A stretch of DNA of 64,000 nucleotides from positions 62,001 through 126,000 of the forward strand of contig JACPOI010000028.1 in assembly GCA_016185015.1 (NCBI GenBank), read 5' to 3'. The number at the start of each line of letters is the position of its first letter. Within the stretch, counting starts at the first letter, position 1. Origin of the DNA: Burkholderiales bacterium (lineage in GTDB: Bacteria > Pseudomonadota > Gammaproteobacteria > Burkholderiales > Burkholderiaceae_C). The translations under genes and the position numbers were made by a program. Below the pieces are notes generated by a model that saw only the letters and a list, made by a program, of their open reading frames with translations, was not told where the DNA came from and did no database searches. Shown in pieces: positions 2,057-16,280 of the stretch.

Positions 2057-2968
2057 TCAGGGCAGTGCGAGCAGACTCGCGAGCAGCAGGGCGGCGAGCA
2101 GGTTGTGCGCCAGGGCCGCCGCCAAGGGCAGGCCGGCCACCACCAGCAGGATGCCGAGACCCAGTTGCAGGGCGATCAGGACCAGCAGGACCATGCCGGT
2201 GCGCCGCTGGCGGCCCTTGAGCAAGTGCCAGGCCGTGATGGTGACAAGTACCACGGTGATCAGGCCCATGCAGCGATGCAGCAGGTGCACAAGAGCACCC
2301 TGCGGATTGATGGGCCAGGCCGATGGGTCGACCTGGGGGACATGCCAGGGATTCAGGGCATCCCAGGAGACGGGCGAGGGAAGGGCGCAGCCGATCAGGT
2401 CCGGGCAGCTGAGCCCGGCCAGTGTGCTGCTGACCAGGCCGCCCAGCGCCACCTGGACCACGACGGCGACGCTGGCCGCCAGGCGCCAGCCACGCGCCAA
2501 GTCAGGCGCGCTGCCCGTGCCCTGGCGAGCCTCAGAAAAAGCCATGCGTGCGCACAAGGCGAAAAGCAGGAAACCGCCCAGCAGATTGCCCAGCGCAATG
2601 GCCGGGATCTTTGCGCCGACCGTCCAGCGCCCCAGGACCGCGAGAAACAGGGTCACGACCAGTGCCCAGACCGCGGTCCAGCGCTGGTCCCAGGGCTCGG
2701 GTTTGCGTTTGAAAGCACCAACGAGCAGGAGCAGCACCAAAGGCAGCAGCGCAACGGCCAGCAGGCGATGCATCAGGCGCAGGACGTCGATGCTTGCCGA
2801 TGGCGTGGCCGGCAGCGCCTGTGCGTAGCACTGTGGCCAGGGCGCACAGCCGAGCCCGGCCGCCGACAGGCGGATGTACGCACTGATGCCGACGATGGAA
2901 AAAACGAGCAGGGCGCAGATCAATGCTGTGCGCTGCAGCAAAACCGTCCGGGGGTGGTCTGGGTTCAT
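2057..2968 (-). CDS. ctaA: Second COX15/CtaA-type heme A synthase
   Basis: 303 residues, about eight membrane helices, a different lineage from the heme A synthase at the window start. Two Cys pairs lie in the extracytoplasmic loops (GLGCAPWPQC and LSCPDLIGC), and His ligands appear in LMHRLLA, NPWHVPQ, LLHRCMG and LAHNLLA, as in CtaA. The start is taken at 2968 (MNPDHPRT); the frame stays open further upstream but through an AT-rich regulatory stretch. It is transcribed away from the heme-copper oxidase operon starting at 3177, which also has its own heme O synthase. This suggests dedicated heme O/A supply for that enzyme. The link is inferred from position. Confidence 0.85.
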   Translation of the reverse strand: MNPDHPRTVLLQRTALICALLVFSIVGISAYIRLSAAGLGCAPWPQCYAQALPATPSASIDVLRLMHRLLAVALLPLVLLLLVGAFKRKPEPWDQRWTAVWALVVTLFLAVLGRWTVGAKIPAIALGNLLGGFLLFALCARMAFSEARQGTGSAPDLARGWRLAASVAVVVQVALGGLVSSTLAGLSCPDLIGCALPSPVSWDALNPWHVPQVDPSAWPINPQGALVHLLHRCMGLITVVLVTITAWHLLKGRQRRTGMVLLVLIALQLGLGILLVVAGLPLAAALAHNLLAALLLASLLALP

Positions 2969-3176
2969 GGTGCGATCGATGAGGTGTTGTATATAAGATA
3001 TATATAAGATACAGATTAATAAATCTTTTCCAGGGGATTGCGTCTTGACCGGGTCAAAAGATGTATTTGATTTGCGATATATCAAGAAAAAACCCGAGGC
3101 CCGACAACATACTGAAATTGTCGGACATCAAGTCCGGCCTGGCTACACAGCGAGTCATTCAGTGAAAGGGTTTGCG
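2969..3176. promoter_or_regulatory. AT-rich divergent control region of the NOR-like operon
   Basis: 208 bases between the divergent heme A synthase and the small membrane peptide gene, clearly AT-richer than its surroundings. From left to right: a 10-bp direct repeat ATATAAGATA at 2991-3000 and 3002-3011; a 13-bp palindrome TTGACC-G-GGTCAA at 3045-3057, FNR/DNR-like arms but with a 3-base spacer; AAGATGTATTT at 3058-3068, which matches the half-site known for the NO sensor NsrR although the second half is poor; a 7-10-7 inverted repeat CCGACAA/TTGTCGG at 3101-3124; and CGGAC/GTCCG at 3122-3136. Regulator identity is inference. Confidence 0.5.
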
Positions 3177-3332
3177 ATGAACGAGACACACGACGAGAAC
3201 GAACGCGTTCCCCTGATGCAGCAGCTGCTGGACAACCCGTTCCTGCTGCTGTTCCTCGGCGTCATGGTTCCGATGGTGGTCTACACCTTGTGGGGTGTGA
3301 TCGACATTCTGACCGTGCCGCTTGCCAAGTAA
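3177..3332 (+). CDS. 51-residue single-helix membrane peptide, candidate oxidase subunit
   Basis: Short gene with one predicted membrane helix (LLLFLGVMVPMVVYTLWGVIDIL) after a charged N-terminal tail rich in Asp and Glu. No family is recognised. It is the first gene of the operon and is followed after 59 bases by the CuA subunit. Small single-helix subunits are known in B-family (ba3-type) heme-copper enzymes, so an accessory subunit or assembly peptide is the simplest reading. The start ATG at 3177 has a purine-rich stretch (gtgaaaggg) upstream. Function is inferred only from position and topology. Confidence 0.7.
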   Translation: MNETHDENERVPLMQQLLDNPFLLLFLGVMVPMVVYTLWGVIDILTVPLAK

Positions 3333-3356
3333 GGCCGAATCAACAACAAGAAAACC

Positions 3357-14185: not shown

Positions 14186-14487
14186 GACTTCAGGATGAAC
14201 GCGATCGCTGCCGTCAGGTCAGCATCGTTGATCTTGTCGGGACCATTCGGTGCCATGGGGATGGGGCCAAAGTTTCCGGAGCCGCCCTTGCGGACCTTGT
14301 CCATCAACTTGGCCGTGACGTCCTGGCCCTTGTACTTGGCGGCAATGTCCTTGAAGGACGGACCGATCATTTTCTTGTCCTTGGCATGGCAGGCCATGCA
14401 GCCCGCCTTGTTCATGGCTTCTTCGGGGGTGGCGGCCTGCGCGCTGAAAGCAAGCGCGAGCGCCGGCAGGATAAAGAGGAATTTCAT
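14182..14487 (-). CDS. Periplasmic class I cytochrome c (c551/c552, NirM-like)
   Basis: 101 residues with a cleavable signal peptide ending AFSAQA. Heme motif CMACH (Cys30, Cys33, His34) and axial Met78 in PIPMAPN, as in cytochrome c551/c552 electron donors to cytochrome cd1. Start at ATG 14487, preceded by AGGAGT; the longer open frame upstream overlaps nirS and lacks a signal. It lies 74 bases downstream of nirS; the gap holds a CCGCCC/GGGCGG hairpin (14530-14546) with no T run. Probably donates electrons to NirS and perhaps to the CuA-containing enzyme at 3392. Confidence 0.9.
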   Translation of the reverse strand: MKFLFILPALALAFSAQAATPEEAMNKAGCMACHAKDKKMIGPSFKDIAAKYKGQDVTAKLMDKVRKGGSGNFGPIPMAPNGPDKINDADLTAAIAFILKS

Positions 14488-14561
14488 GTGCGTGACTCCT
14501 GAAACAGTGGTCTTCGACGTCTGCAGACACCGCCCGGTGTGGGCGGCATCTGCCGGTATCG

Positions 14562-16280
14562 TCAATAGATGTCGTGCTGGGTGTTGAACACGTTGAAGTG
14601 ACCCGTGGGCGTGATCAGGCGCGGGTCCTTGATCACGGCCTTGAGCTTGAGCGTCTTGTCGTCCACCACGACCAGGGCGCTCTGCTTGTTCTTGGCCGAC
14701 CAGACCGCGAACCAGACTTCATCACCCGCCTTGTTGTACTCGGGCTGCACGACGCGCTTGGCACCGTCATCCTTCAGGTCGGCCCACTCGGCGATCGGCA
14801 GCACCTTGTAACCCTTGTCGAGGTTGTTGATGTCGTACACCACGATCGATTGCGAGATCTTCGGGTCCGGGTTCAGCGGCGCATCCGACCAGAGGTTCTT
14901 GGACTTCGGGTGGCTCTTGATGAAGAGCGCACCGCCGCCGGGGCCAGCCACCTTGGCCACTTCCTTGAAGGCGTACTGCTTGTGTTTCACCGGATCGGTG
15001 CCGATCAGCGAGATCGTCTCGTCACCCAGGTGACCGGTCGCCCAGACGGGGCCGAATTTCGGGTGCACGAAGTTCGCGCCACGACCGGGGTGGGGAATCT
15101 TGCCCACGTCGATCAAGGCCTGCAGCTTGCCCTCTTTCATGTCCACCGCGGCAATCTTGTTGCTCTGGTTGGCGGCCACCATGAAGTAGCGCTTGGAAGC
15201 ATCAAAGCCACCGTCGTGCAGGAAGCGTGCTGCGCCGATCTCGGTGATCTTGAGCGCCTCGATGTTGCGGTAGTCCACCAGCAGGATCTTGCCGGTCTCC
15301 TTGACGTTCACCACGAACTCGGGTTTGAAGTGCGAGGCCACGATCGCGGCCACGCGCGGCTCGGGGTGGTATTCCTGCTTGTCCACGGTCATGCCGCGGG
15401 TGCTCACGATCTTCAGCGGCTCCAGCGTGTCGCCCTTCATGATGGTGAACTGGGGCGGCCAGTAGGAGCCGGCGATCGCCAGCTTGTCCTCGTAGCCCTT
15501 GTACTTGGACGTGTCCACCGAACGGGCTTCGAGGCCGACGCGGATTTCGGCGACGTTGTCGGGTTTCTCCATCCACAGGTCGATCATGTTGATCTTGGCG
15601 TCACGTCCGATCACGAACAGATAACGTCCCGAAGCCGACAGGCGCGAGATGTGCACCGCATAACCGGTCTTGATGACGTTGATGATCTGCTTGGTGTCGC
15701 CGTCGATCAGCGCCACTTCGCCTGTATCACGCAGGGTGGTGGAGAAGATGTTGTCGATGTTGTACTTGTTCATCTTCTTCGTAGGGCGCTGGGCCGGCGG
15801 GATGATGACTTTCCAGCTCTGCTTCATCTGCTCCATACCCCATTCCGGAGGCTGCGGCGGCTCGTGCTGAATGTAGCGGGCCATCATGTCCACTTCTTTT
15901 TCAGTCATCTCGCCGGAGGTCTGCCAGTTGGGCATGCCTGCGGGGGAGCCGTAGGCGATGAAGATCTTGAGGTAGTCCGTGCCCTTGGAAACGGTCACGT
16001 CAGGGGTCAAGGGCTTGCCCGTGGCGCCCTTGCGCAAGACGCCGTGGCAGCCCGCGCAGCGCTCGAAGTAGACCTTGCGCGCCACGTCGAACTCCGCCTG
16101 CGTCATCGGCGGCGCCTTGGGATTGGTGCTTTGCACCATGGGTTCGTTCACCAGTGGCGAGGTGCCCGCCTGGTAGTTCATCTCGGGCGTGGTGACGCCC
16201 TTCTTGTCTTGTGCGAACGCAGAAACCGCCAGCGCGGCCAAGGCCAGCGCCGCCACCTGCGTGTACTTCTTGATTTTCAT
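14562..16280 (-). CDS. nirS: Cytochrome cd1 nitrite reductase (NO-forming)
   Basis: 572 residues. Reduces nitrite to NO in the periplasm during denitrification. Signal peptide ending AVSAFA; cytochrome c domain with CAGCH (Cys75, Cys78, His79); eight-bladed propeller binding heme d1. The d1 axial ligand is His210 ([15 protein letters not shown]), and the catalytic histidines correspond to His355 (RFLHDGG) and His397 (IPHPGRG). The C-terminus FNTQHDIY is typical of the family. A good ribosome binding site (AGGAG) precedes ATG 16280. FNR/DNR-type sites lie 140 to 200 bases upstream. None of the heme d1 genes nirE, nirJ or nirDLGH is in the window, so cofactor synthesis must be encoded elsewhere. 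Confidence 0.96.

Follow-up and report, generated by a model that had tools for sequence, protein, structure and literature searches.

One mark of the nitric oxide (NO) reductases known as eNOR is a Gln in the position of the cross-linked Tyr, as stated in the available part of PMC8756737. These enzymes are the former ba3-a1 group and their operon carries a gene for the copper chaperone SCO, again according to the parts of the sources at hand (PMC8879329, PMC6431628). In this work we describe an eNOR locus from a Burkholderiales bacterium (GenBank assembly GCA_016185015.1). The stretch of DNA that was analysed, hereafter the window, is 64,000 nucleotides long and corresponds to positions 62001-126000 of one contig (JACPOI010000028.1, our C25) in a 4.02 Mb assembly of 66 contigs, 95.8% complete with 4.6% contamination. 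At positions 2057-16280 of the window lies an extended form of the eNOR operon, itself conserved, together with two enzyme look-alikes in which catalytic residues have been lost, beside nirS, the gene for cytochrome cd1 nitrite reductase. A sequence-only reading of the window had named these genes, and all 13 genes of the block lie at the coordinates that it gave; its observation is confirmed and its interpretation is partly supported. Our explanation of the whole, which we consider slightly better than an even guess, is an eNOR operon in which a CuB-poor heme-copper homologue (HCO2) acts as a heme-handling or redox partner, next to a nirS whose product is fed by imported heme d1.

Subunit I of the enzyme (3945-5645, forward strand; PF00115, 217.7 bits) keeps three His ligands of CuB (H231, H280 and H281) and three of the hemes (H69, H385 and H387). 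Four residues past the His of transmembrane helix 6 (TM6) it carries Gln235, within the motif GHSSQQ, and this Gln is conserved in at least 93% of 69 aligned rows. Since a Gln occupies the position of the cross-linked Tyr and the CuB and heme ligands are kept, the CuA enzyme is, judged by these residues, an eNOR-type NO reductase, and NO reductase activity is predicted for it. This activity of eNOR has reportedly been described by Murali 2024 (PNAS), a study that we know through papers citing it. The solved structures nearest to subunit I by sequence are B-type oxidases, with ba3 of T. thermophilus prominent among them. The CuA subunit II (3392-3931, forward; PF00116) has conserved C161, E163, C165, H126 and H169. 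The operon starts on the same strand with a small one-helix protein of 51 amino acids, orf51 (3177-3332), and continues beyond subunit I with the heme O synthase CtaB (5656-6552; TIGR01473, 261.9 bits, cut-off 210.3) and a SCO/SenC copper chaperone (6562-7395; PF02630, 52.9 bits).

Further downstream, also on the forward strand, follow four genes. The first (7392-8936) encodes cytb-FlpD, a cytochrome b6-like domain joined to two [4Fe-4S] modules and an MvhD-like FlpD domain (PF00033, Fer4, PF02662); the His for its heme and the Cys for its clusters are conserved across 74 rows. The second, orf184 (8914-9468), encodes a transmembrane anchor with a beta-sandwich; the protein is conserved, C71 and C92 being invariant in 46 rows, yet it matches no Pfam family at E 1e-3, and its predicted model (pLDDT 94) gives no fold match at E 0.001. 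Then come HCO2 (9465-10904) and cytb-FNR (10901-12793), a cytochrome b6-like protein with [2Fe-2S], FAD and NAD domains (PF00033, PF00111, PF00970, PF00175). From SCO through cytb-FNR, successive reading frames overlap by 4-23 bases, which suggests one operon.

The arrangement is widespread. Among the best 80 named loci matched by HCO2, many of which have flanks that end at contig edges, phmmer matches at E 1e-3 were obtained for orf184 in 78, cytb-FlpD in 75, cytb-FNR and SCO in 74 each, eNOR subunit I in 71, CuA in 68, CtaB and orf51 in 67 each, and ctaA in 60. The closest named locus among the matches listed is that of Curvibacter sp. PAE-UM (97% on HCO2), which places the window in Comamonadaceae/Burkholderiales. 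The core of the operon can be recognised from genomes with eNOR and without HCO2. In five of six such loci from genomes of the class, the order orf51-CuA-eNOR-SCO-cytb-FlpD-orf184 is kept, and cytb-FNR is likewise missing from the retrieved part of these five; the sixth is cut off behind eNOR. A Defluviimonas plasmid (L174:7774-14520) has the shorter eNOR operon too, followed by a hemerythrin gene, so that the operon is plasmid-borne in Alphaproteobacteria. Because these loci keep the shorter operon, we assign cytb-FlpD and orf184 to the eNOR operon itself, and HCO2 and cytb-FNR look like later additions to it. The sequence-only reading had treated 7392-12793 as one unit. That does not hold, as eNOR loci that lack HCO2 still have cytb-FlpD and orf184, and HCO2 in turn occurs without eNOR. 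Accumulibacter, considered as an earlier example of the fused cytochrome b in the literature, was dropped, as the literature search found no such text; the available part of PMC6446978 mentions for Accumulibacter only a 'ba3 oxidase' and nirMCFDLGHJN.

HCO2 is the first of the two look-alikes. Its score against the COX1 family is weak (43 bits, cut-off 34.8), but the predicted model is all-helical and confident (pLDDT 87, pTM 0.89), and its best fold match is T. thermophilus ba3 (TM-score 0.70, 19% identity). All of 76 HCO2 homologues have the TM6 His and the TM10 pair (H363 and H365), and 74 have the TM2 His (H85), so the ligands of the low-spin and high-spin hemes are there. The CuB set, the TM6 His together with a TM7 pair, is not: a profile alignment to eNOR places Ala281 and Tyr282 of the window protein at the TM7 CuB His positions, and none of the 76 homologues has both TM7 His. 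HCO2 is therefore probably not an NO or O2 reductase, and a role as a conventional oxidase or NO reductase was rejected because CuB ligands are missing. Of the earlier view of a second heme-copper enzyme, the fold and the heme ligands stand; the canonical CuB site does not, which makes NO reduction unlikely.

One could argue that HCO2 is nonetheless a second enzyme that reduces NO or O2, at a new kind of site made of one His and Tyr282, given its COX1-family fold, its heme ligands and the Tyr that 25 of 27 eNOR-linked homologues have in the second of the TM7 positions. The uniform lack of the TM7 pair speaks against such a site, as does the Phe that the window HCO2 has four residues past the TM6 His, and we regard the idea as most improbable. 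A point in the other direction is that a single TM7 His is retained in 9 of the 76 homologues.

The setting of HCO2 outside eNOR operons favours a background in heme or oxidase assembly, with later recruitment to eNOR, and both the eNOR-free neighbourhoods and the placement in a tree argue for this. HCO2 extends past the class, with 61 of 299 genomes of the phylum matching at E 1e-3, some of these being weak or eNOR cross-matches; a search of plasmids gave no match. We hand-picked 41 loci from the class, family and phylum matches, two same-genome paralogue pairs (G663, G598) among them, that have HCO2 and no eNOR in range, and tallied them by eye. By this tally 31 have genes for the assembly of heme A, oxidase or cytochrome c nearby: 16 have ctaA, 7 have ctaB or cox genes only, and 8 have ccsA (cytochrome c assembly). 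The tree was built from every third eNOR-linked named homologue and the others, 76 in total, with L171 trimmed to its C-terminal part. HCO2 falls apart from eNOR and aa3, with several long branches and distant outgroups. The main eNOR-linked set of 34 rows (node values 100/97), of which 25 have eNOR in the locus and 9 are cut or without it, has as its sister (93/86) a set of five, mostly linked to ctaA, and the ccsA-linked proteins appear to form a cluster (85/90). Two things temper this view: no assembly gene is in range for the remaining 10 of the 41 loci, and linkage to ctaA or cox genes may only mirror an oxidase context.

Some individual HCO2 neighbourhoods are worth recording. A distant HCO2-like branch adjoins ccsA (L158, L161, L171, L173, L206, L208, L212 and L154), several members having TPR or resB cytochrome c assembly genes as well; two of these proteins were scanned and had no Pfam match. 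In L159 (9198-14747) an HCO2 homologue stands directly 5' of a napA-napB-napC cluster, and in L172 (5167-8937) an HCO2-like gene directly follows a canonical coxB-coxA pair.

Two electron inputs to the locus, one through cytochrome c and CuA and one through NAD(P)H and iron-sulfur modules, are plausible from the domains present. One possibility is that HCO2 is an electron-transfer subunit, which would pass electrons from NAD(P)H over FAD, [2Fe-2S] and cytochrome b to the HCO2 hemes and on to eNOR or the quinone pool, as a second input to eNOR. The overlap of the HCO2 and cytb-FNR genes in the window, the cytb-FNR matches in 74 of the 80 HCO2 loci and the retention of heme ligands without CuB are all in keeping with this. 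On the other hand, eNOR operons without both genes exist, and in the 41 eNOR-free HCO2 loci cytb-FNR is out of range, bar a 23-bit match in L145. We judge this rather unlikely, and continue with HCO2 as a heme-handling or redox partner.

The second look-alike is the CtaA-like protein (2057-2968, reverse strand; PF02628, 125.9 bits), a homologue of heme A synthase. The Glu of the ExxHR motif is strictly conserved in heme A synthase, as given in the available part of PMC12808453. Here it is Arg64, and the heme-ligand His of TM4 is Asn128, so that neither the catalytic Glu nor the full set of four heme-ligand His is present. Among 51 aligned rows, taken at 95 bits or more from the window and the HCO2 loci with weaker matches left out, Glu is replaced by Arg in 49 and the TM4 His by Asn in all 51; the catalytic Glu is found in none of 55 CtaA-like rows inspected for the motif at 75 bits or more. 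The comparators have both residues in nine cases of nine, the window genome's own second CtaA included. The 'dedicated heme A synthase' of the sequence-only reading must therefore be given up, and a normal heme A synthase was rejected on account of the lost Glu and heme-ligand His. As the altered residues are themselves conserved, they suggest that the protein has a role different from the usual synthesis of heme A. That said, the ctaA genes near L162, L164 and L165 (eNOR without HCO2) and near L200 (with HCO2) keep the Glu, which weighs against a general rule and means that the altered CtaA marks a subgroup and not eNOR at large.

How closely do these genes travel together across genomes? In 369 genomes of the class, HCO2 is found in 46, eNOR subunit I in 34 and both in 28 (Fisher p 3e-24), so they cluster more than expected by chance. 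HCO2 presence was called at E < 1e-40 in the class and family samples, with weak eNOR cross-matches excluded. Of 200 genomes sampled from the family, HCO2 is present in 23, and in 20 of these the same contig carries an eNOR-like second match. These figures bear out the NO-reduction context and the conserved clustering with the CuA enzyme. Against a strict partnership, 6 of the 34 eNOR genomes are without HCO2, which is thus not required.

The tie to nirS is looser. Genes that are nirS-like (E 1e-60, which takes in relatives of 42-56% identity) occur in 68 of the 369 genomes, in 32 of the 46 with HCO2 and in 28 of the 34 with eNOR, so the statistical link that had been anticipated is there. It does not extend to proximity or to HCO2 by itself. 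A nirS match is present in 17 of the 80 named loci, or 14 at 300 bits or more, and the idea that nirS always partners the block was rejected; close nirS (at least 60% identity) is found in 3 of 18 HCO2 genomes without eNOR, which is no excess (p 0.44) and speaks against a direct tie between HCO2 and nirS. The sequence-only reading would have been refuted by homologues lying mostly in genomes free of nitrogen-oxide genes, which is not the case: 10 of the 46 HCO2 genomes have neither eNOR nor nirS-like genes, other nitrogen-oxide genes not having been searched there.

Upstream of orf51 lie two copies of TTG-N8-CAA, which we take to be the FNR/DNR-type pattern, one an inverted repeat at 3072-3085, 105 bp 5' of the gene, and the other starting at 3118 (-105 and -59 relative to orf51). 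In 42 of 67 loci the 220 bp preceding orf51 contain the pattern, compared with 2.6 in mononucleotide shuffles and a background of 238 in 6882 tiles of the 80 loci. An FNR/NO-type control of the eNOR operon would account for these sites.

The remaining genes of the block are on the reverse strand. NirS (14562-16280; PF02239, 502.9 bits; E 3e-263 to the solved NirS 5guw) has intact motifs in the alignment to solved NirS, with CAGCH for the c heme and with AVHISR, FLHDGG and PHPGRG, which presumably carry the His of the d1 site, kept. Next to it are a small c-type cytochrome (14182-14487) with a CMACH motif and weak matches to cytochrome c551/c550, and a heme-d1 propeller protein without c domain (12806-14185; PF02239, 97.7 bits), whose nearest solved structure is 6rtd (listed as 'Cytochrome c', E 9e-36), presumably NirN.

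What the window genome does not show is a pathway to make the cofactor. NirJ was not found in it (the best radical-SAM match reaches 44 bits, cut-off 515), and neither was any NirD, L, G or H domain. The picture of a self-contained nitrite-to-NO module fails on this point. NirJ and NirDLGH were both not found in seven of seven genomes tested, which are the window genome, Curvibacter PAE-UM (L064), L065, L067, L086, L139 and G365; NirJ and four NirDLGH domains each were present in five further nirS genomes for which both searches were made. In all, 44 of 50 nirS genomes have NirJ at E 1e-60. One of the NirJ-less genomes, G375, was read after the count as competent for d1, because nirF and NirDLGH-type genes run downstream of its nirS up to a contig end soon after. 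Incomplete assemblies might simply leave out the d1 genes, and G375 shows that this can happen. We find this barely credible as a general account, since the result was the same in seven of seven genomes and the Curvibacter PAE-UM locus is on a 3.63 Mb scaffold. In a NirS tree, where L109 is labelled NirJ-bearing though its NirJ was never tested, the NirJ-less NirS other than G375 form two separate clades, the second drawn from four families. The second NirJ-less clade (L237, L238, L239 and L240) has NirS with an extra N-terminal cytochrome c domain.

Divergent from nirS is a gene for a TonB-dependent receptor of the heme/hemoglobin family (16522-18876, forward; TIGR01786, 372.8 bits, cut-off 323.75). 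The receptor of the window has no His between its FRAP and NPNL boxes, where heme/hemoglobin receptors usually conserve one. We compared nirS surroundings in 41 genomes at 60% nirS identity or more (40 and the window), leaving out nine at 48-56%. A receptor gene stands 300 bp or less from nirS in five of six NirJ-less genomes, the sixth being G375, and in none of 35 NirJ-bearing ones (p 8e-6). With named genomes added the numbers become 10 of 11 and 0 of 37 (p 1.7e-9); this Fisher count omits L138, which is the G424 genome with identical NirJ coordinates, and L107, L121 and L128, which have no whole nirS in the locus. The order of the two genes is divergent in six cases, tandem in three and convergent in one. 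The receptors are of distant types: identity is 50-94% among those of the window, L064, L065, L067 and L139, and falls to about 28% between these and the group of G523, G365, G539 and G529. The TIGR01786 cut-off is passed also by the L139, G539 and G529 receptors, and those of G523 and G365 are just under it with heme families still the best match.

The promoter shared by nirS and the receptor contains two FNR/DNR-type boxes (16414-16427 and 16473-16486), again of the TTG-N8-CAA form. Such boxes are near 9 of 10 nirS/receptor starts (the L065 box was seen in a wider promoter stretch), with a background of 193 in 1327 tiles of 500 bp. Promoters of nirS often carry them anyway, so the telling point is that the receptor shares them. 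Taken together, the missing NirJ and NirDLGH and the adjacency of the receptor to nirS lead us to infer import of heme d1, and the NirS of the window probably depends on it.

Several points weigh against this proposal. The NirDLGH search did not cover the NirJ-less genomes G523, G539 and G529, and receptors were sought with one query, that of the window, at E 1e-8. In a few regions the sequence stops shortly beyond nirS (after about 250 bp in G412). The genomes of a clade are relatives of one another, and L064 is nearly of the window's own species, so that the counts with named genomes are not all independent. The L086 receptor is CirA-like and not heme-type, and the nirS/receptor pair of G529 has no box.

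A different account would make the receptor one of the usual kind for heme or iron, with a NirS that either is inactive or obtains d1 by some pathway not yet recognised. TIGR01786 is indeed a general heme/hemoglobin family, and our literature search found no report of heme d1 uptake. However, receptors stand by nirS only in the NirJ-less genomes of the sample, in several gene orders and with boxes in the shared promoters, and the NirS motifs are retained. We lean against this account while granting it real weight, and keep to d1 import as the preferred reading.

In the whole assembly, the heme-copper subunits I found number four, namely aa3 (upstream on the same contig as the window), cbb3 (ccoN, TIGR00780, on contig C48), eNOR and HCO2. 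No heme-copper NO reductase besides eNOR was found; NO consumers outside the heme-copper family were not searched. As the sequence-only reading had it, norCB, nosZ, narG and napA are absent from the genes of the block. In the assembly nosZ was not found, only its CuA domain giving matches, and narG is on another contig (C30; TIGR01580, 1267.8 bits over a 742-amino-acid stretch). By inference, the end product of NO reduction is nitrous oxide (N2O).

In the following scheme, the regulation, the uptake of d1 and what HCO2, cytb-FNR and the CtaA-like protein do are inferred. CuA would take electrons from cytochrome c, and eNOR subunit I would turn NO into N2O at its heme-CuB site, with CtaB and SCO serving assembly and with cytb-FlpD and orf184 as the standard eNOR-linked redox partner. 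HCO2, cytb-FNR and the altered CtaA would be later recruits that are common in Burkholderiales. HCO2 may help to make heme-a-type enzymes, as a membrane partner with two hemes that transfers electrons or handles heme, and cytb-FNR may supply HCO2 with electrons from NAD(P)H. Yeast Cox15 is linked to ferredoxin, and this lies behind the idea of an electron supply to heme a synthesis. On the nirS side, the receptor on the shared promoter would import the d1 of neighbouring cells into the periplasm, and the d1-propeller protein (12806-14185) might hand it to NirS as a carrier. Since NirS and the last d1 steps are periplasmic, uptake across the outer membrane could suffice.

If d1 is imported, a nirS gene in a genome does not imply that the organism reduces nitrite on its own, and denitrification becomes tied to cofactor cross-feeding. 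A CuB-less heme-copper clade in several classes of Pseudomonadota, if true, would make some 'oxidase subunit I' annotations misleading and offer a new handle on the assembly of heme a enzymes. Both ideas are testable in cultured relatives such as Curvibacter sp. PAE-UM. In its broadest form, we propose that d1 is a shared good, which some nirS bacteria, that of the window among them, cannot make and import through a dedicated TonB receptor that is co-regulated with nirS and reached more than once with distant receptor types, and that the eNOR operon has a CuB-less heme-copper branch for heme handling or electron transfer; for this broad form we see the chances as evenly poised.

Our literature search, which did not include Murali 2024, found no description of cytb-FlpD, orf184, HCO2, cytb-FNR or the altered CtaA with eNOR. 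The window shares with described eNOR the Gln at the Tyr position, the CuA subunit, SCO in the operon and the relation to ba3, and differs in that those five genes accompany it. HCO2 resembles heme-copper oxidase subunit I in its ba3-like fold and its TM2, TM6 and TM10 His, and differs in having no TM7 His pair and in standing off eNOR and aa3 in the tree. The CtaA-like protein has in common with the heme A synthases CtaA/Cox15 the Pfam family, the Cys pairs, three of four heme-ligand His and the HR of ExxHR; Arg for the catalytic Glu and Asn for the TM4 His set it apart. Compared with NirS encoded in a nir operon, the window likewise has an intact NirS, a c-type cytochrome and a d1-propeller neighbour, whereas no NirJ or NirDLGH was found in its genome and the gene of a TonB receptor shares the nirS promoter. 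Finally, this receptor is like other TonB heme/hemoglobin receptors in scoring above the TIGR01786 cut-off and in its FKAP...NPNL region, and unlike them in adjoining nirS and FNR/DNR-type boxes, with d1 as its proposed ligand.

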